DNA of 64,000 nt. Source: Methanococcoides alaskense (GTDB lineage Archaea; Halobacteriota; Methanosarcinia; Methanosarcinales; Methanosarcinaceae). This document shows, one piece after another, positions 1,238 through 56,592 of this stretch. The stretch spans positions 310,001 to 374,000 of the forward strand of contig NZ_JAQFFK010000003.1 in assembly GCF_027594145.1 (NCBI RefSeq). The letters are read 5' to 3'. The notes beneath the pieces were generated by a model that worked only from the letters and a program-made list of their open reading frames with translations, was not told where the DNA came from and searched no databases. The position numbers and the translations under genes were made by a program. Every line of letters starts with the position of its first letter. The first letter of the stretch is position 1.

Positions 1238-2116
1238 ATGAGCTGTTTTTCCTCATACATCACTTATTTATCTTTTCGGTACTTTGGATTTAGCGTGGAC
1301 CCCTCAATAGAATTGAAAATACTCGATAAAATTAATCTTATAAAAGAGGCCATATCTAAGAAAGAAAAGGTGCTTGTTGCTTTCTCAGGAGGCGTGGATA
1401 GCTCAACTCTTGCTGCTCTGGCTTTTGATGCATTGGGGGACAATGCTCTTGCTGTCACCCTTTATTCACCTGTGATCCCGCAAAGTGAACTTGAATATGC
1501 AAAAAGAACAGCAGAAGTTATTGGAATAAGACACATTGTTGTTGACCATGACATTCTTTCCGATGAGCGTATAAGAATGAACGATCCTCAGAGATGTTAT
1601 TATTGCAAGAAGCAATTTGTCAAGAAGCTAAAAGGCGTAGCTTCAGAGGAAGGGTTGAATGTGATCATGGAGGGGACAAATGCTTCCGAAATAACCGGTC
1701 GCCGACCCGGGCTGGAAGCCCTGAGGGAAGCTGGATCCTCGATCTTTACCCCTTATGTAGAGTTCGATGTAAGTAAAGGGGAAGTTCGCCAGATGGCATC
1801 CTATCTCGGACTTGATGTTGCTAATCGACCTTCAAATTCCTGTCTTCTTTCAAGACTTCCTTATGGCACTGAAGTGACCTCTGATATCCTTGGAAAAATT
1901 GAAACTGCGGAAGATCTCATTCATTCCTTGGGAATTTCTTCTGTAAGGGTGCGGGTACACGATGATATTGCCCGTATCGAGGTATAGCCTGTGGATATTC
2001 CTATTATCATTCAAAATAGAATTCCGATCCTTATCTGCTTGAATAAAATGGGCTATCCGTATGTGACGCTTGATCTGGAAGGTTTCAGAAGTGGCAGCAT
2101 GGATGAGGTTCTCTGA
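1238..2116 (+). CDS. larE: LarE-type ATP-dependent sacrificial sulfur transferase with in-frame amber codon
   Basis: PP-loop ATPase of the LarE/NAD-GMP synthase superfamily, which activates and sulfurates a pyridinium nucleotide for nickel-pincer cofactor synthesis. The pyrophosphate loop SGGVDSS is at residues 50-56. A CYYC motif and the family motif RPSNSCLLSR (Cys202) follow. The frame meets TAG at 1985-1987 (codon 250) but continues to TGA at 2114-2116. The 42 residues after the TAG contain YVTLDLEGFRSGSMDEVL, the hallmark LarE C-terminus. Read through, the protein has 292 residues, the usual family length, and its stop lies 2 bp before the next gene. The host encodes pyrrolysine proteins (mttB, mtbB here), so UAG is probably read as pyrrolysine. 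A nonsense mutation is the alternative. The start is uncertain: GTG at 1295 fits the family N-terminus better than ATG 1238. Confidence 0.88.
1985..1987 (+). other. In-frame UAG (candidate pyrrolysine codon) in larE
   Basis: The TAG sits between ARIEV and PVDIP, at a position that is not strictly conserved in LarE proteins. One base change from TTG or TGG would create it. Conserved family sequence resumes directly downstream in the same frame. Confidence 0.75.
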
Positions 2117-2118
2117 AC

Positions 2119-2553
2119 ATGAATGAAAATGTCGATGTGGCGATAAGGGGTGCAGAAGCATCTGATCGTAGGTCAATTGAAGGTATTATGGGAACATATT
2201 TCCTTGATATCGATGATGTTCCCATGGAGGATTTCATAGTTGCTGAAATGGATGGTAAGATCGTTGGAGTGGCAGCAATTTCGGAAAAGGAATGTTGTGA
2301 AGTTCATTCCATTGCAGTCCATCCTACCTATCGTGGACTGGGGATCGGATCAAAAATGATCTCCAGGCTCCTGGGGGATGTTTCCCATGACCGGCTTTAT
2401 GTGAGGACCACATCTCCTGTCTTTTTCAAAAAAATGGGCTTTGTGGAACTTCCCATGTCTGAAAAAGCGAGCTTATGGCAGGATTGTCGTGAATGTGACC
2501 GATACGATAACTGTAAACAATATGTTCTATGTATGGTACTGAAAGAGGTTTAA
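2119..2553 (+). CDS. GNAT family N-acetyltransferase
   Basis: 144 residues with a single GNAT fold. The acetyl-CoA-binding motif A is SIAVHPTYRGLGIGSKM around residues 57-73 (R/QxxGxG/A type). The C-terminus has a cysteine cluster (DCRECDRYDNC) seen in ArgA-like acetyltransferases related to N-acetylglutamate synthase. The substrate cannot be read from sequence. It begins 2 bp after the extended larE stop and ends 3 bp before the DUF531 gene, so the three genes probably form one transcript. Confidence 0.85.
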   Translation: MNENVDVAIRGAEASDRRSIEGIMGTYFLDIDDVPMEDFIVAEMDGKIVGVAAISEKECCEVHSIAVHPTYRGLGIGSKMISRLLGDVSHDRLYVRTTSPVFFKKMGFVELPMSEKASLWQDCRECDRYDNCKQYVLCMVLKEV

Positions 2554-2556
2554 ATT

Positions 2557-3111
2557 GTGTTAACACTTGGTCTTATAAATACTTATGACAAAATAAAGGT
2601 GCTTGATGCTCATTATCGTGCGATTGCAAGAGCTGCGCCTATCTGTTATGCTTACGGTCTAACCCTCTGTCTTTTTGATTTTCCTTTTAAGATGACCCCG
2701 GAGGAACTTGTGGAATATGTTATGGACAAGACAACCATTGGCGGGTCTGGTAAATATCTAAAGGCATTGCATGAGAATAACCGTCTGTTCATTTTCGATC
2801 TTCCAAAAAAAGGCTTCCAATCCCAGTTCGGAACTGCTGTGGTAACCACCTCAATGCCTGAGGAAAAGTTCACCGTCACTCCGGAAGATATCGCTGAAGG
2901 CATGATGCGCAACCGGTCCTATCTTCTGCTCATTGGTCTTGGCAGGAAAGGTCTTCCGAAGAAATTGTATTCCCTTACAGATCATCACCTCGACATTACC
3001 TGTGATGGTATCTCCCTTGAGACGTGTACTGCCATGGGAATTATTCCAGCTTACATTATGGGTATAGTCAATACCAGAAGGAAACTGGAAGATAAACGGA
3101 ACAGGAGATAA
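2557..3111 (+). CDS. DUF531 family archaeal protein
   Basis: 184 residues starting with GTG, 3 bp after the acetyltransferase stop. The sequence (TLGLINTYDKIKVLDAHYRA at the start, TTIGGSGKYL in the middle, LLIGLGRKGLPKK later) matches my memory of the conserved DUF531 family found across methanogens, whose function is unknown. The glycine-rich LIGLGRKGLP segment and the alternating beta/alpha pattern suggest a Rossmann-like or SPOUT-like fold; that is inference. Confidence 0.75.
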   Translation: MLTLGLINTYDKIKVLDAHYRAIARAAPICYAYGLTLCLFDFPFKMTPEELVEYVMDKTTIGGSGKYLKALHENNRLFIFDLPKKGFQSQFGTAVVTTSMPEEKFTVTPEDIAEGMMRNRSYLLLIGLGRKGLPKKLYSLTDHHLDITCDGISLETCTAMGIIPAYIMGIVNTRRKLEDKRNRR

Positions 3112-3275
3112 CTACTATAATTGGCTTTTTTTATGATTTAAAGGCAGTATTACCTTTTTATCATAAAAAGCATTTTGCGGAACATGATCATATAATTTAA
3201 GATTTCCATAGGCAGCAAAGATGAGGGATGATGTAAAGGCTTTGGATTCATTTTTAAGAAAATGATTTATCACCT

Positions 3276-4727
3276 TCATCTTATCATCCTCCTTGTAAAG
3301 ACGAAGATAAACAGTGCTGTCACAAATATGCCAATAGCAGACTCAATTGAAGCAAATAAACGGCTCCATCCGATCGGATGGACATCACCATAACCTAGTG
3401 TTGTGAATGTTATTAAACTTGTATAAATGCACAATATGAAGTCATTATAAACTAAGTGAATGTTTGCTTTTAACCATTGAAGGCCAAAATAATTCAGACT
3501 TAAATCGTAATTAATATATGATGGCTGAATTTGTAATAATTTACTCCCAGTAAATTCAATTCCACAAAATAAATATGATATTGCAAACATAATGATAGTA
3601 ATAAATGAAACTAAAATTACATTATATGGTCTCTCTCCATATAAGCAGAATCTTCTATAGAATATATTCCAAAATTTCCTACCTAAAAACCCTAATTGTT
3701 TTCTCTTACATTCCATTTCTTGAATATAGAACTCACCAGAAATTTCATAATTGCCCGATTTCTGATAACTTTGTTTTAAGCGCCTGTATATCCCTTCGAG
3801 TGTTTTCCATTCAAAAGCAGTTTCTTCTTGAGATGCTTCCCTGATTGTTATCGATGAATTAAAGAAATAATTATAAATTCTGGATTGTAGCCTGGAATCC
3901 TTTATTTCATCATTGTTCCATGTAGAATCAGTTAAATCTACTACTTCGATATTAGAACGATTAAAATTGCATTGACTCAGATTTGCTAGAATTCTCGCAT
4001 TTTCTGAAAAAAATGTATTCTTAAAATTTATTAATTTTGAATTATTTGGAATGAAATTAAATCTTCCATATAACTCCGCCATGAAAAAATTGGCATCTCC
4101 ATATAACTCCGCCATGAAAAAATTGGCATTTCCTAAAAACTTAGTCCAGAAAAATTGTACATCTCCTAAAAACTTCGTCCCTGTAAATTCCGTATCTCCT
4201 GAAAACTTAGCTCTGATAAATTCTGTATCTCCTAAAAACTTCGCCATGGAAAAATTGGCATCTCCTAAAAACTTCGCCCCTAGAAATTTTACATTTCTAT
4301 ATAAGTCCGCCCCTGTAAATTCTGTATCTCCTAAAAACTTCGTCCCTGTAAATTCTGTATCTCCTAGAAACTCCGCCCCGAAAAAATTGGCATTTCCTGA
4401 AAACTCCGCCCCTAGAAATTTTGCATTTCTTGAAAACTTAGCCATGATAAAATTGACATCTCCTGAAAACTCAGCATAGCTAAAGTCCACATCTATTAGG
4501 AAAACGTGGTTATGTTCATGAGATGTCTTTGAAAAATCTGAAGTTTTTGGTGGAAAAAAGAATCCATTGAAATTAATAATCTTTTTCTCTGATTTTAATA
4601 TTTCATCAATTCCCTTGTTAAATTCCTTTATATCTTTGCCCACATCTTTAAGATGAAATATGCAATATTCTAAATCGGGTAAGGCTTCATATGGGCATTT
4701 CCATTGGTCATCAGAATATTTGCACAT
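3276..4727 (-). CDS. Pentapeptide-repeat protein fused to a two-TM potassium channel
   Basis: 483 residues. The N-terminal 30 residues contain C2, C11, C22 and H25, possibly a small metal site. Residues about 75-235 are tandem pentapeptide repeats (A[N/K]F consensus, as in AKFLGDTEFTG) that should form a right-handed beta-helix. A helical linker around 265-355 leads to a channel module: TM1 near 372-393, the selectivity filter TLGYGD preceded by TFT near 437-446, and TM2 near 456-475. The filter indicates a K+-conducting pore of the Ion_trans_2 class. Such fusions are known, but the ligand of the repeat domain is not. No clear operon partner is adjacent. Confidence 0.87.
   Translation of the reverse strand: MCKYSDDQWKCPYEALPDLEYCIFHLKDVGKDIKEFNKGIDEILKSEKKIINFNGFFFPPKTSDFSKTSHEHNHVFLIDVDFSYAEFSGDVNFIMAKFSRNAKFLGAEFSGNANFFGAEFLGDTEFTGTKFLGDTEFTGADLYRNVKFLGAKFLGDANFSMAKFLGDTEFIRAKFSGDTEFTGTKFLGDVQFFWTKFLGNANFFMAELYGDANFFMAELYGRFNFIPNNSKLINFKNTFFSENARILANLSQCNFNRSNIEVVDLTDSTWNNDEIKDSRLQSRIYNYFFNSSITIREASQEETAFEWKTLEGIYRRLKQSYQKSGNYEISGEFYIQEMECKRKQLGFLGRKFWNIFYRRFCLYGERPYNVILVSFITIIMFAISYLFCGIEFTGSKLLQIQPSYINYDLSLNYFGLQWLKANIHLVYNDFILCIYTSLITFTTLGYGDVHPIGWSRLFASIESAIGIFVTALFIFVFTRRMIR
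4080..4480 (-). repeat. Degenerate ~30-bp tandem repeats coding pentapeptide pairs
   Basis: Units such as cctaaaaacttcgcc and cctgaaaactccgcc recur about every 30 bp. They are the DNA counterpart of the protein repeat and have probably expanded by slippage or recombination. Several neighbouring units are nearly identical. Confidence 0.8.
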
Positions 4728-5144
4728 GGACTACCATCATATTCTTATGTATTATAATATTTTTTATTTAAATGATATAAGAGGCGCATGCTATATTTCT
4801 GTCAATTTGATATAGCAGGAAAACGAGATTGACATGTTCACCAACTGTTAGCTTCAGGATTGTTTTCTGTTGCAATCTACGTTAGGTATTTTGTATTGCC
4901 AAAGCACAATTCATTTCATACAAAATTGATAATGTTTTTAATTTAATTTGATCATGTTCAACCAATCCGTCATTCTTGTTGTAGGAATGAATAGTTGTTC
5001 GTCCAATGCGGACAACAATGTATGAATGGAGGAAAAAGCATAATGCTCAGGCGGGTCTATGTCTAATAATAATGCAGTGGTAACTGCTGTAAGAATTACA
5101 GTGATTGTGACTATCGGGATAAAAAGAACAGGGGATATTGAAAA
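4728..5144. other. Intergenic region between divergent genes
   Basis: 417 bp with no convincing gene. AT-rich stretches at 4740-4775 can serve the minus-strand channel gene. An imperfect inverted repeat, TGTTCGTCC-AATGC-GGACAACA, at about 4996-5017 could be an operator or hairpin. A 38-codon frame from ATG 5058 overlaps the start of the DUF362 gene and has no recognisable features. Confidence 0.5.
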
Positions 5145-31432: not shown

Positions 31433-32476
31433 ATGAGGGTAACAAAAAGAGACCTGAAACACAACAGGGAAGGGGAGATCTCCCTGACCCCGGAAACGCT
31501 TGATGATCTGTGGCACCTGAAATATATCATCGAGAAGGGCGACCTGGTCTTTTCTCTCACTAAAAGGAAAGCGGATTCTGCAGCCGATAAGCTCAGACCC
31601 GAAAAGGCCGAAAAGAAGACCGTACGCCTCGGCGTGAGGGTCGAGGATGTTGAGTTCCATAAGTTCTCTAACCGTCTGCGGGTCCATGGTCTTATTGAAC
31701 ATGGAATGGATGCGGGTTTTTATCATACGTTGAACATTGAAGATGGTACGAACCTTTCCATCACTAAATACTGGAAAAAGGACCAGTTAGAACGTGTTAA
31801 TGAAGCGGAAGCAGCTTCCAAAAGACCCAAGGTCATTCTCGTGGCAATCGAAGAAGGGGATGCGGACATTGGTTTTGTACGTCATTATGGAATTGAGATA
31901 TACTCTCATATAACTCAGTCTTCCGGTAAAGGGGAAGGCACGCTTCGAGAAGTGTTCTTCAGTACCATTTTTGACCAACTGACCCATGCAATGAGTGGAA
32001 CTGAGTCGGTGGTAGTTTCAGGTCCTGGTTTTACTAAAGATGATTTCATGAAGTATGCATCGTCTAAGAACTCGGATCTTGTGGCAGGTATCCTTGTTGA
32101 GGATACTTCTTCCATAGGCATGTCCGGCTTCCAGGAAGTTCTTCGAAGGGGTGCTGTCGACCGTATCATGGAAGAGTCAAGGATCGCAAGGGAAGCCTCT
32201 CTCATGGAAAGCCTCTTAAAAGAGATAGCACTTGATGGCAAGGTTGCCTATGGTATGGATGAAGTGAAGCAGGCGATCGATTTCGGTGCTGTGAAAACCC
32301 TTCTGGTTGCTGATGAGATGCTTCGTCTTGAGAGGGAATCCGGCAACATTGACGGTCTTATACAGAACGTTGAACGTTCACAGGGGAAAATGGTCGTTTT
32401 CAGCACAGAATTCGAACCTGGTCAAAGATTACATTCACTTGGTGGAATTGCAGCGATCTTGCGATTTAAGATATGA
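31433..32476 (+). CDS. pelA: Pelota (Dom34) ribosome-rescue factor
   Basis: 347 residues. N-terminal Sm-like domain (MRVTKRDLKHNREGEISLTPE ... DDLWHLKYII), central domain with VVVSGPGFTKDDFMKYA, and C-terminal eRF1-like domain (YGMDEVKQAIDFGAVKTLLV). eRF1's GGQ loop is absent, as expected. Works with aEF1-alpha and ABCE1 to split stalled ribosomes. 49 bp after rqcH, likely one transcript. Confidence 0.96.
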   Translation: MRVTKRDLKHNREGEISLTPETLDDLWHLKYIIEKGDLVFSLTKRKADSAADKLRPEKAEKKTVRLGVRVEDVEFHKFSNRLRVHGLIEHGMDAGFYHTLNIEDGTNLSITKYWKKDQLERVNEAEAASKRPKVILVAIEEGDADIGFVRHYGIEIYSHITQSSGKGEGTLREVFFSTIFDQLTHAMSGTESVVVSGPGFTKDDFMKYASSKNSDLVAGILVEDTSSIGMSGFQEVLRRGAVDRIMEESRIAREASLMESLLKEIALDGKVAYGMDEVKQAIDFGAVKTLLVADEMLRLERESGNIDGLIQNVERSQGKMVVFSTEFEPGQRLHSLGGIAAILRFKI

Positions 32477-49737: not shown

Positions 49738-50548
49738 ATGCGCTTGTAAAGGCGTGCTCAATTCTCTTTTTTATTTTTTTATCGGGTAGTTGCGGCGGCA
49801 TCTCTTCTTTGTATTTAAATCTTATGTAATTCAGTGTTTTGCTTTTAAACACATCATCATTTAAAACATATTTTGATACATTATTATAAAATTCATATAC
49901 TACATTTGCCTGTGTATTATCACATGTGTAGATACAACAAATAGGAGCAATTTTTCTTGTGTTATTTTGTCATAATTTTCACATTTTATCTTTTTAGCTT
50001 CTATTGATCGTGTTTTTTTCTCTAAATCTGCTCTATGTCCTTTTTTTATGATCCGAGCAAATATGCTTGATTTAGACAAGCATCTAAAAATATGGCTGTT
50101 GTGATTCTTTTGAAATTGTCCGTTTAAGGCAAATGTGGCTTATATATTTTTGGAGTTGCTAACCAATAAATATATAAGCGAGTATTGAAAAGCAGGTATT
50201 ACAGTAAAAAGCAGAAGTGCGCCTTACAACTGATGGTGGATGATCAAATTAACAATTGCTTATAGGATCCATGCGGATCTTGGCATGTTAATGATGTTTT
50301 CCATTATAGATGTTTTAAGACGCTATATGAAACGCTGTTCGTAATAGGTCATTGACCTGTCTTACGGGGTTTCATACCGAAGCAATATAATGTTGGCATT
50401 TCCGCCACATTCGGACACCCTTTTGGGGGCTGTGGTCCTTGTGACCTTGTCCGAATAAAAAAGACTTGCCGATATTATGATCGGGGACGTTCGTTCCAGA
50501 ATTGATCCGATCTTACTAAAAAAGACAAATAAAGGAGTTGTAAAGAAA
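49738..50548 (+). promoter_or_regulatory. mttB promoter and long structured 5' leader
   Basis: 811 bp without a gene. Two TATA candidates (CTTATATATTTTTGG near 50141-50155 and AATAAATATATAAGC near 50164-50178) would give a leader of about 350 nt. At 50409-50456 a 9-bp stem ATTCGGACA / TGTCCGAAT encloses smaller helices (CCC-TTTT-GGG and GGTC...GACC). AAAGGAG at 50531-50537 is the mttB ribosome-binding site. Confidence 0.6.
50409..50456 (+). ncRNA. Structured leader element upstream of mttB
   Basis: 48-nt element closed by a perfect 9-bp stem with internal hairpins, ~92 bp before the start codon. There is no U-run directly after it, so it looks more like an RNA regulatory or stability element than a terminator. 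Confidence 0.4.
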
Positions 50549-52039
50549 ATGGTAGAAGCTTATTATCCAGGTAGATCCCCTCTCCAGGGTGTACAGTTAG
50601 AGTTGTTCTCCGAAGATGATCTCAGAGCTATTCATTATGCTTCAATGGAAGTTTTCCTTAACCCTGGTGTTCAGGTATCTGACGCAGAAGCAAGGGCTAT
50701 CTTCAAGGAAGCAGGCTGTGAAGTTGATGAGAAGACCCAGATCGTAAAGATCCCTGAGTACCTTGTAAACAGAGCACTTATTGACGCTCCATCAAGGTTC
50801 GTTCTCGCTGGCCGTGACAAGAAGAAGGATGTCGCAATGGAGCACAAGGGTAAGGTCCACTGGGTTAACTTCGGTACCGGTGTCAAGATGTGCAACTATG
50901 TCGCACCAGGCAAGTACGAGACAGTCGACTCCGTTGAGCAGGACATTGCAGATTCCGCAAAGGTCGTTGACTACCTCGAGGAGATCAGCTACTTTACACT
51001 TTCCGTTTCCGCAAGGGACTGGGCAGGTAAGGGTGCACAGGATGTTCACGAGACATTCACACCTATCGCTAGCACCTCAAAACACTTCCACCACATCGAC
51101 CCTGTCGGTGAGAACGTTGAGTACTACAAAGGTATTGTTGACGCATACTACGGTGGCGACTCTGAAGCAGCACGTAAGAGGCCAATCTTCTCTATGCTTC
51201 TGTGCCCAACCAGCCCACTCGAGCTCAGTGACAATGCATGCCAGGTAATCATAAAAGGTGCACGCTTCGGTATGCCTGTAAACGTTCTGAGCATGGCAAT
51301 GTCCGGTGGATCCTCCCCAGTATTCAGGGCAGGTACACTCGTTACACACAACGCAGAAGTTCTCGCAGGTATTGTACTCGCACAGCTCGTACAGCCAGGC
51401 GCAGCAGTATTCTACGGTAGCTCAACCACAACCTTCGATCTGAAGAGAGGAACAGCTCCGGTCGGTGCACCAGAACTCGGTCTTATCAGCGCTGCAGTAG
51501 GTAAGCTCGGTCAGTACTATGGCCTCCCAACCTATGTTGCAGGTACCTAGGCAGATGCAAAGGTCCCTGATATACAGGCAGGCCACGAAAAGACAATGAC
51601 CACCCTCCTTCCAGCATTCGCAGGATGTAACACCATCTACGGTGCAGGTATGCTTGAGCTCGGTATGACCCTCTCCATGGAGCAGTTGGTTATTGACAAC
51701 GACATCATCAGGATGACAAAGTCCGCAATGAAAGGTGTCCCAGTAACAGACGAGACCCTTGGTGTAGCATCCATCCAGAAGGTAGGAATCGGTAACAACT
51801 TCCTTGCACACAAGGAAACCAGGAACAACATCAGCATCGTATCTGATCCAGAACTTATCGACAGAGACATGTTCGGTGACTGGGAAGCTGCAGGTTCAAA
51901 AGACCTCGCAACAGTTGCACACGAAAAAGTTCTTGACATCATGAAGAACCATGTAGTCAAGGCAATCGACAGCGACCTCTTAGCAGACATGCAGGCTGTA
52001 GTGGACAAGGCAGATGCTGCATTTAGATCCAATATGTAA
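50549..52039 (+). CDS. mttB: Trimethylamine methyltransferase MttB, contains pyrrolysine
   Basis: 496 residues with in-frame TAG at 51548-51550 = codon 334, the known pyrrolysine position of MttB, in the context YVAGT-Pyl-ADAKVPD. Start ATG 50549 (AAAGGAG upstream) gives the family length; an upstream ATG at 50477 lies in leader sequence. Moves a methyl group from trimethylamine to the corrinoid of MttC; the Pyl ring activates the amine. Codon use here is strongly biased, as for highly expressed genes. mttC follows 41 bp later. Confidence 0.97.
51548..51550 (+). other. UAG pyrrolysine codon of mttB
   Basis: Codon 334; the downstream frame continues to TAA 52037-52039 with full MttB homology. 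Confidence 0.95.
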
Positions 52040-55188: not shown

Positions 55189-56592
55189 ATGGCAACAGAA
55201 TATTTCTTAAGAATGGGTGACGGTCAGAAGATCTTCATGACCAAGGAAGACATACTGGCTGATATCGAATCAGGTTGTGCTGACGCAGCAGACCTCGGTG
55301 ACATCCCAACACTTTCCGAAGATGAAATGGACCATATGCTTGACATCATCACTGCTCCTGGCAGGATCGTCGGTGTAGAGCCAGGACTTGAAGTTCCGGT
55401 AACACACGACATCGGTGCTATCAGGATCGATGGTGACCAGGGTAACAGTGGTGTAGGTATTCCTGCAAGCAGACTCGTTGGTTCAATGGTCCACGAGCGT
55501 GCATTTGGCGCAGACACAATGGAGCTCGGTCACATCGACTACAGCTTCAAGCCAGTCAAGCCAGTCATCTCCCAGGAATGCCAGACAATGGAGTCCTGCC
55601 AGCAGAACATGGTAATTCCTATGCTCTACGGTGCAATGCCAAACATGGGTCTGTACTACACTCCTGATGGTCCTTTCGAGAACCCAGGCGACCTTATGAA
55701 AGCTTTCAAGATATCTGAAGCTCAGGATTCTATCCAGCACGCTGGTGACCACGGAATCCGTGACATGGTCTGGATCATGCAGAAACTTCAGAAGGTTGGT
55801 TCTGATGGTGTCAACTTCGATACCATCGGTGCAGCTGGTGACGGTGACGTGTATGCATCACTTAATGCTATTGAGCAACTCCGAAAAGAGTTCCCTAACA
55901 TGTACATCAACGCAGGTATGGCAGGAGAACTCGTTCTCGGTATGCACGGTGACCTTGAGTACGATGGTACAAGACTTGCAGGTCTCTGGCCACACGAGCA
56001 GGTATTACTTGCTGAGAAGGCAGGAGCTAACACTTTCGGTCCTGTATGTAACACCAACACCAGCAAGACCACCGCATGGAATCTGGGTCGCTCAGTAACA
56101 TTCACAAAGGCAGCTGTCAAAGCATCAAACATCCCATGTCATGCAGATATGGGTATGGGTGTCGGCGGTATCCCAATGCTTGAGACCCCTCCAATAGATG
56201 CAGTAACAAGGGCAAGCAAGGCAATTGTTGAGATCGCAGGCGTAGATGGAATATAGATCGGTGTTGGCGACCCACTCGGTATGCCAATCTCACACATCAT
56301 GGCTTCCGGTATGACCGGTATGAGAGCAGCTGGTGACCTTGTTGCAAGGATGCAGTTCTCAAAGAACATGAGGCTCGGAGAAGCAAAGGACTTCGTAGCA
56401 AAGAAGCTCGGTGTCTCAAATGCAGACCTTTCCGACGAGTTCGTCATGAGAGAGATCAGAGAAGAGCTCGACATCGGTGTAATCACCTCTGTGCCAGGTT
56501 GCGCAAAGGGTATTGCAGCTAAGATGAACATCGAGAAACTCCTCGGTATCGACATCAACTGCTGTGACACTTTCAGAAACACCATCGCATAA
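55189..56592 (+). CDS. mtbB: Dimethylamine methyltransferase MtbB, contains pyrrolysine
   Basis: 467 residues with in-frame TAG at 56254-56256 = codon 356, the known Pyl position of MtbB, in the context AGVDGI[11 protein letters not shown]. N-terminal [19 protein letters not shown] and TIM-barrel core as in the family. Demethylates dimethylamine to MtbC. 22 bp after mtbC, same transcript. Strong codon bias. Confidence 0.97.
56254..56256 (+). other. UAG pyrrolysine codon of mtbB
   Basis: Codon 356; the frame continues 111 codons to TAA at 56590-56592. Confidence 0.95.

Follow-up and report, generated by a model that had tools for sequence, protein, structure and literature searches.

The larE gene of this Methanococcoides genome carries an in-frame amber codon that most likely gives pyrrolysine (Pyl) at residue 231 of 273 in a working [4Fe-4S]-type LarE, the codon having arisen by neutral drift, and we assign this reading a probability of roughly 0.85. 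We infer its three parts, namely Pyl insertion, enzyme activity and neutrality, from sequence. The gene would be a new example of a phenomenon already known from Thg1 in Methanosarcina acetivorans and not one special to larE. The open reading frame at positions 1238-1987 of the window, by which we mean the whole stretch of 64,000 nucleotides that was analyzed, encodes 249 amino acids up to the TAG and then continues for 42 further codons to a TGA. The preliminary description had read the frame in the same way, and it had likewise correctly reported a 2-bp gap to the next gene, as larE ends at 2116 and an ATG follows at 2119. The features of the locus are as follows.

1295-2116, plus strand: larE coding region with read-through, 273 amino acids and TGA; matches TIGR00268, with a GTG start common to four sister species.
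1985-1987, plus strand: in-frame TAG (amber), predicted pyrrolysine codon; residue 231 from GTG 1295 (250 from ATG 1238).
1238-1294, plus strand: upstream in-frame extension, probably untranslated; the start choice of the preliminary description.
1988-2113, plus strand: tail past the TAG, 42 codons; 13 residues invariant in a 14-sequence alignment (Gly272 to Glu290).
2114-2116, plus strand: TGA stop of the read-through frame, read from the sequence.
2105-2109, plus strand: GAGGT, Shine-Dalgarno-like by sequence, within the larE tail and before the next gene.
2119-2553, plus strand: GNAT acetyltransferase gene (PF13508), 2 bp past larE.
2557-3111, plus strand: DUF531 gene (PF04407).

The GTG at 1295 is common to our genome and four sister species, the position of ATG 1238 is occupied in the sisters by CTA in two cases and TTG in two (ATG in 0 of 4), and in M. 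seepicolus (G021) the longer form of larE is interrupted by a TGA as its 17th codon. On these grounds translation probably starts at GTG 1295, which makes the TAG codon 231 of 273. The earlier assignment of the amber codon to position 250 was thus right about an in-frame TAG and needs correction in its count, which ran from ATG 1238. Residue numbers for LarE motifs and cysteines are given below as counted from ATG 1238. At the other end of the gene, the GAGGT at 2105-2109 may couple translation of larE to that of the downstream gene.

The read-through product was compared with the NCBIfam model for LarE, TIGR00268, and scored 274.4 bits against a curated cut-off of 150 bits, with residues 34-288 covering profile positions 5-258 of 259. 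Truncated at the TAG, the protein scored 240.6 bits and its match stopped at profile position 219. Matched end to end, the read-through product has the family length that had been claimed for it, and the full-length score above the cut-off is joined by the PP-loop SGGxDS motif and the CxxC...C pattern that mark LarE: SGGVDS at 50-55 and Cys 120, 123 and 202 are all invariant in 14 LarE sequences. The claim of a conserved LarE tail beyond the TAG was also borne out, both by the reach of the profile match and by 13 of the 42 residues being invariant in the same alignment. Each of the four sister species agrees with the tail at 37 to 39 of its 42 residues, and judged by this conservation the tail is no chance open frame; because 13 of the residues are invariant, a LarE without the tail would probably not work.

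The best matches among solved structures were 6b2o and 5udq (LarE of the lactate racemization operon) and 8cnz, which is titled NAD_synthase domain-containing protein and which we take to be a LarE. Residue 250 pairs with Pro225 of 5udq (sacrificial LpLarE) and lies two residues past the Glu of ARIE, a Glu that is invariant in 14 sequences. An AlphaFold model made with four near-identical sequences as input had a mean pLDDT of 34.7 for LarE, and we draw no structural conclusion from it. The genes of 8cnz and of the LarE of Thermotoga maritima, unlike larE here, are not known to contain an in-frame stop. LarE enzymes with a CxxC...C pattern are described as carrying a [4Fe-4S] cluster and having no need to sacrifice a cysteine (PMC9283937, PMC13329287), and this pattern suggests that the LarE studied here is of the [4Fe-4S] type. 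It resembles 8cnz and the [4Fe-4S]-dependent LarE that PMC9283937 describes from T. maritima in its CxxC plus distant Cys, its PP-loop SGGxDS and its similar length.

The history of the codon was followed across Methanococcoides and the family, a comparison that the preliminary description had proposed, in 29 genomes besides our own, the best-scoring of 103 others with LarE. The codon is CAG (Gln) in all four of the closest species (G016, G021, G022 and G023) and encodes Leu in six other genus members; the 19 further genomes have Met (7), Lys (4), Ile (3), Pro (3), Tyr (1) or Gly (1). As the sisters have CAG where this genome has TAG, one C-to-T change accounts for the amber codon, and the position is variable and appears to be tolerant. 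A LarE match was found in 104 of 111 family genomes, and a TAG lies inside that match in our genome only (1 of 104). Eight other family genomes, G021 among them, have TAA or TGA inside the LarE match; in every case the stop precedes the gene proper and stands 23 or more residues ahead of the FSGG motif. Private substitutions in our larE number 7 synonymous and 5 nonsynonymous in the 230 codons upstream of the TAG and 0 synonymous and 1 nonsynonymous in the 42 codons downstream, numbers too small to reveal whether the tail has stayed under selection after the mutation arose.

The machinery for Pyl is encoded in full, as pylT(CUA), pylS, pylB, pylC and pylD are all in the genome. The pylS gene (TIGR02367, 430.6 bits) lies together with a tRNA-Pyl with a CTA anticodon and with pylB, pylC and pylD, whose products score 583.8, 575 and 399.7 bits, respectively, against their NCBIfam models, each above its cut-off. 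Pyl in methylamine methyltransferases is held to be catalytic, and two such genes lie in the window, each with one in-frame TAG and a PYLIS match, in agreement with the preliminary description, which had UAG encoding Pyl in both.

50477-52039, plus strand: mttB with an in-frame TAG at 51548-51550; PYLIS_3 at 51548-51647; the MTTB family match spans the TAG.
55189-56592, plus strand: mtbB with an in-frame TAG at 56254-56256; PYLIS_2 at 56254-56353; the Dimeth_Pyl family match spans the TAG.

The Rfam PYLIS matches in both genes start at the TAG. Like these genes, larE has an in-frame UAG in a Pyl-coding methanogen, with homologous protein on either side of the codon, and given the pyl machinery the residue at 231 would be Pyl rather than another amino acid. 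In other respects larE departs from the methyltransferase type: the placement of the amber codon is described as conserved among isozymes of MttB, MtbB and MtmB (PMC2933860), whereas that of larE is private among the LarE-bearing genomes, sits at a variable site and has no PYLIS match in Rfam. At the Rfam gathering threshold, PYLIS matches in the window were confined to mttB and mtbB, with none at larE, and a PYLIS-dependent programme was considered and rejected. A review describes a cis element as unnecessary for Pyl insertion, citing work in E. coli (PMC8211752).

Under the proposed mechanism, a single C-to-T change would have turned a CAG glutamine codon of larE into TAG, and tRNA-Pyl(CUA) would read UAG as Pyl not only in methylamine methyltransferases but also in ordinary genes. 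The ribosome would insert Pyl at residue 231 and continue to TGA 2114, and the resulting full-length [4Fe-4S]-type LarE would insert sulfur in nickel-pincer nucleotide synthesis. Pyl-231 would have no role of its own and would be tolerated because the position is variable. Of the explanations offered beforehand, neutral drift to Pyl is the best supported, by CAG in four sisters, a change of one step, a variable column and a full pyl cluster.

The occurrence of UAG inside ordinary genes was surveyed in a sample of 564 kb of our genome (C3:10001-574000; 29% of the genome) and 580 kb of G016 (M. burtonii-like). Open reading frames of at least 100 amino acids were aligned each way between the two samples, with 379 and 375 of them kept, and a stop counted as interior when it lay 30 or more codons deep in the alignment. 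There were 20 such stops: 6 in our genome (3 TAG and 3 TAA) and 14 in G016 (7 TAG, 4 TGA and 3 TAA). The unfiltered tally of 10 TAG against 10 TAA or TGA shows little by itself, since many candidates resemble antisense or upstream-extension frames. With the filter that one family match above its curated cut-off must span the stop, a criterion picked after the unfiltered list was known and to that extent a weak point, 7 of 10 TAG and 0 of 10 TAA or TGA remained (one-sided Fisher p = 120/77520 = 0.0015), and one-step mutation would lead one to expect TAG in only 37-43% of cases. The spanned TAGs were those of larE and a HerA-like ATPase in our genome and, in G016, those of HerA at another codon, Iso_dh, CrcB, ThiI and a VWA protein; the span in larE comes from an NCBIfam model and not from Pfam, which supplies the other six.

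The three TAGs that failed the filter lie in a frame antisense to a dehydrogenase gene (C3:167271 in our genome), in a short frame that no family model matched (sister 1590013) and in a large surface protein (sister 1566191) with families on one or both sides and none across, of which the first 1626 of about 2168 residues were run against Pfam and NCBIfam. Among the TAA cases, a PAS histidine kinase (C3:501194) has domains on both sides and no Pfam match across the stop, and several NCBIfam kinase models far under their cut-offs cross the stop by a few to some 34 residues. When matches below the cut-off are admitted, the contrast becomes 7 of 10 TAG against 1 of 10 TAA or TGA (p = 1245/125970 = 0.01).

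A second comparison, of the ends of open reading frames, does not depend on homology. TAG stops are described as rare in Methanosarcinales (PMC10471768), and TAG ends 12 of 519 mechanically called frames in our sample and 15 of 528 in that of G016. Reading on to the next TAA or TGA took a median of 59.5 codons past TAG in our sample (12 ORFs), against 14 past TAA (237 ORFs) and 12 past TGA (270 ORFs; p = 1.8e-4), and 66 codons past TAG in G016 against 12-14 after TAA or TGA (p = 8e-4). With larE, mttB and mtbB removed, the median past TAG was 30 (9 ORFs; p = 0.0024) in our sample and, in the same reduced test, 57 (13 ORFs; p = 0.0044) in G016. Those TAGs of our genome that lie in plausible genes and have an aligned codon in a relative point to an origin from CAG in larE, HerA, a 499-amino-acid ORF and DP1.

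DP1, the small subunit of DNA polymerase D, is encoded on the minus strand at C3:39383-41005 (L106), with TAG at codon 366. Among 11 Methanococcoides genomes this codon is TAG in three (our own, G016 and G023) and CAG in eight. The DNA_pol_E_B family match spans the TAG, and the read-through product matches the full-length DP1 profile with 709 bits. G020, one of the eight genomes with CAG, has an in-frame TAG elsewhere in DP1, within a variable part of the gene near codon 87. Further DP1 loci are L109, L110 and L113.

The notion that Pyl is close to unique to methyltransferases, with few proteins outside them, is not supported for this genus, as the two samples have UAG inside genes for a HerA-like ATPase, DP1, ThiI, an isocitrate/isopropylmalate dehydrogenase, CrcB and a VWA protein. 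The TAG of the HerA-like ATPase is codon 82 in our genome (L081:5616-6899, minus strand) and codon 350 in G016 (L089:12748-14031, plus strand). The TAGs of G016 that fall inside domains include those of ThiI (L062:9526-10710, minus strand), isocitrate/isopropylmalate dehydrogenase (L086:18373-19395, minus strand) and CrcB (L042:5511-5903, plus strand). Other frames of our genome that run across a TAG encode a multi-PAS histidine kinase (L053:3675-7553, minus strand), a protein with an Mrr-like domain past the TAG (L049:5897-6913, minus strand) and a C2H2 zinc-finger protein (L058:15704-16336, minus strand).

These other TAGs bear on whether the T at 1985 is an error of sequencing, assembly or strain mixture that conceals a true CAG. 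The codon was read from a single assembly (six contigs, 1.97 Mb, estimated completeness 76.6%), it is TAG in this genome only and all four sisters have CAG, as an error would have it. We consider an error improbable, however, as CAG has also become TAG in the HerA-like ATPase, the 499-amino-acid ORF and DP1 of the same genome, and two other assemblies have the DP1 TAG at the identical codon. Moreover, random error predicts TAA and TGA inside domains too, and in no such case did a match above the cut-off cross the stop.

Termination at UAG, by which larE would be a recent pseudogene or would encode a truncated protein without the conserved tail, is a still slimmer prospect. The standard code reads UAG as a stop, and a TAG closes pylB here; the private substitutions of the tail are uninformative on this point. 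The interior TAGs of the genus, in contrast, sit within domains of otherwise open genes, and one of these genes encodes DP1, the loss of which the cell would not be expected to bear. The need for LarE might itself have been lost, as no member of the LarA family (Lar_N) was found in this incomplete genome, whereas one is present in 10 of 10 other genus members searched. Homologues of larB and larC are nevertheless adjacent on contig C1 with open frames, and most of the neighborhood of larA in G016 was not found in this assembly, such that the absence of larA may be a gap. The 16-kb larA region of G016 has one strong counterpart here, of about 900 bases at 90% identity in the middle of a contig, beside weaker and short repeat-like matches. 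The absence of larA may reflect an assembly gap, a rearrangement or a real loss.

An adaptive role for Pyl in LarE, either in regulation by Pyl supply or in a local function, seems very unlikely. UAG decoding does depend on the pyl gene products, and the preliminary description had offered a tie of LarE synthesis to Pyl supply as its other explanation. Nothing was found in favor of such a tie for LarE in particular: TAG is restricted to 1 of the 104 LarE-bearing family genomes, Rfam at its gathering threshold gives no PYLIS match in the gene, the position is variable and UAG also occurs in unrelated genes such as those for DP1, ThiI and CrcB. Least credible of all is a LarE in two pieces, made by a stop at UAG and a restart at GTG 1991, as the GAGGT (1979-1983) found 7 nucleotides ahead of that GTG is present for another reason, its GAG GTA being Glu-Val of the family's ARIEV stretch, the 41-amino-acid piece by itself matches no Pfam family, and G022 has ATG at that codon, downstream of a CAG in an unbroken frame.

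Neutral insertion of Pyl into LarE has parallels in the literature. Pyl has been observed in Thg1 (tRNA-His guanylyltransferase) of M. acetivorans and is described as not essential for its activity (PMC2933860). Thg1 as described there shares with larE an amber codon in one species only and an enzyme outside methylamine metabolism; Pyl was physically observed in Thg1, whereas that of LarE is predicted from sequence. Candidate drift amber genes of T. potens and M. acetivorans are described as random UAG mutations that were kept, Pyl insertion being no obstacle (PMC3639795). The same logic of a neutral UAG applies to larE, those cases being other genes in other organisms, and LarE, ExsB and PP-loop are absent from the main text of that paper. 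We regard larE as one more likely neutral Pyl protein.

Kivenson and co-workers reportedly described in Science in 2025, with proteomics, that Pyl archaea, M. burtonii among them, use UAG as a sense codon throughout the genome. The genome studied here is largely consistent with such a reading of all TAG as Pyl, and larE would be an instance of it if that report stands. The pylB gene is a point of friction, as it ends in TAG (L038:4706-4708, minus strand) exactly at the end of the profile, and reading past that TAG adds 42 codons overlapping pylC. According to a review, pylB of M. burtonii and others terminates at its TAG (PMC2933860), and taken together with the profile end this suggests that UAG may serve both ways, as sense and as stop. 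If UAG were wholly sense in this Methanococcoides, DP1 and LarE would carry Pyl, growth on any substrate would depend on Pyl and the supply of the nickel-pincer cofactor would be tied to it. Unless PylB carries a tail overlapping pylC, the terminal TAG of pylB opposes this stronger proposition, and it lowers the proposition in our estimation from a tentative possibility to an unlikely one. We note that a match related to aRF1 at 31970-32470 falls in the ORF 31433-32476, which by its features presumably encodes pelota.

Annotating amber codons as stops by default is inadvisable in Pyl archaea, as default stop calling makes larE, DP1, the HerA-like ATPase and other genes of this genome appear truncated or split. 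The DP1 codon, common to three species, offers a direct test of the need for Pyl during growth without methylamines.

Downstream of larE, no alignment longer than 400 bases was obtained for the segment at 3111-5117 of the window in three sister regions, and as its flanks are adjacent there, the segment looks inserted here. Within it, 3276-4727 on the minus strand encodes a protein with pentapeptide-like repeats and membrane segments, and its TTLGYGD stretch, which we take to be pore-like, may mark it as an ion channel.
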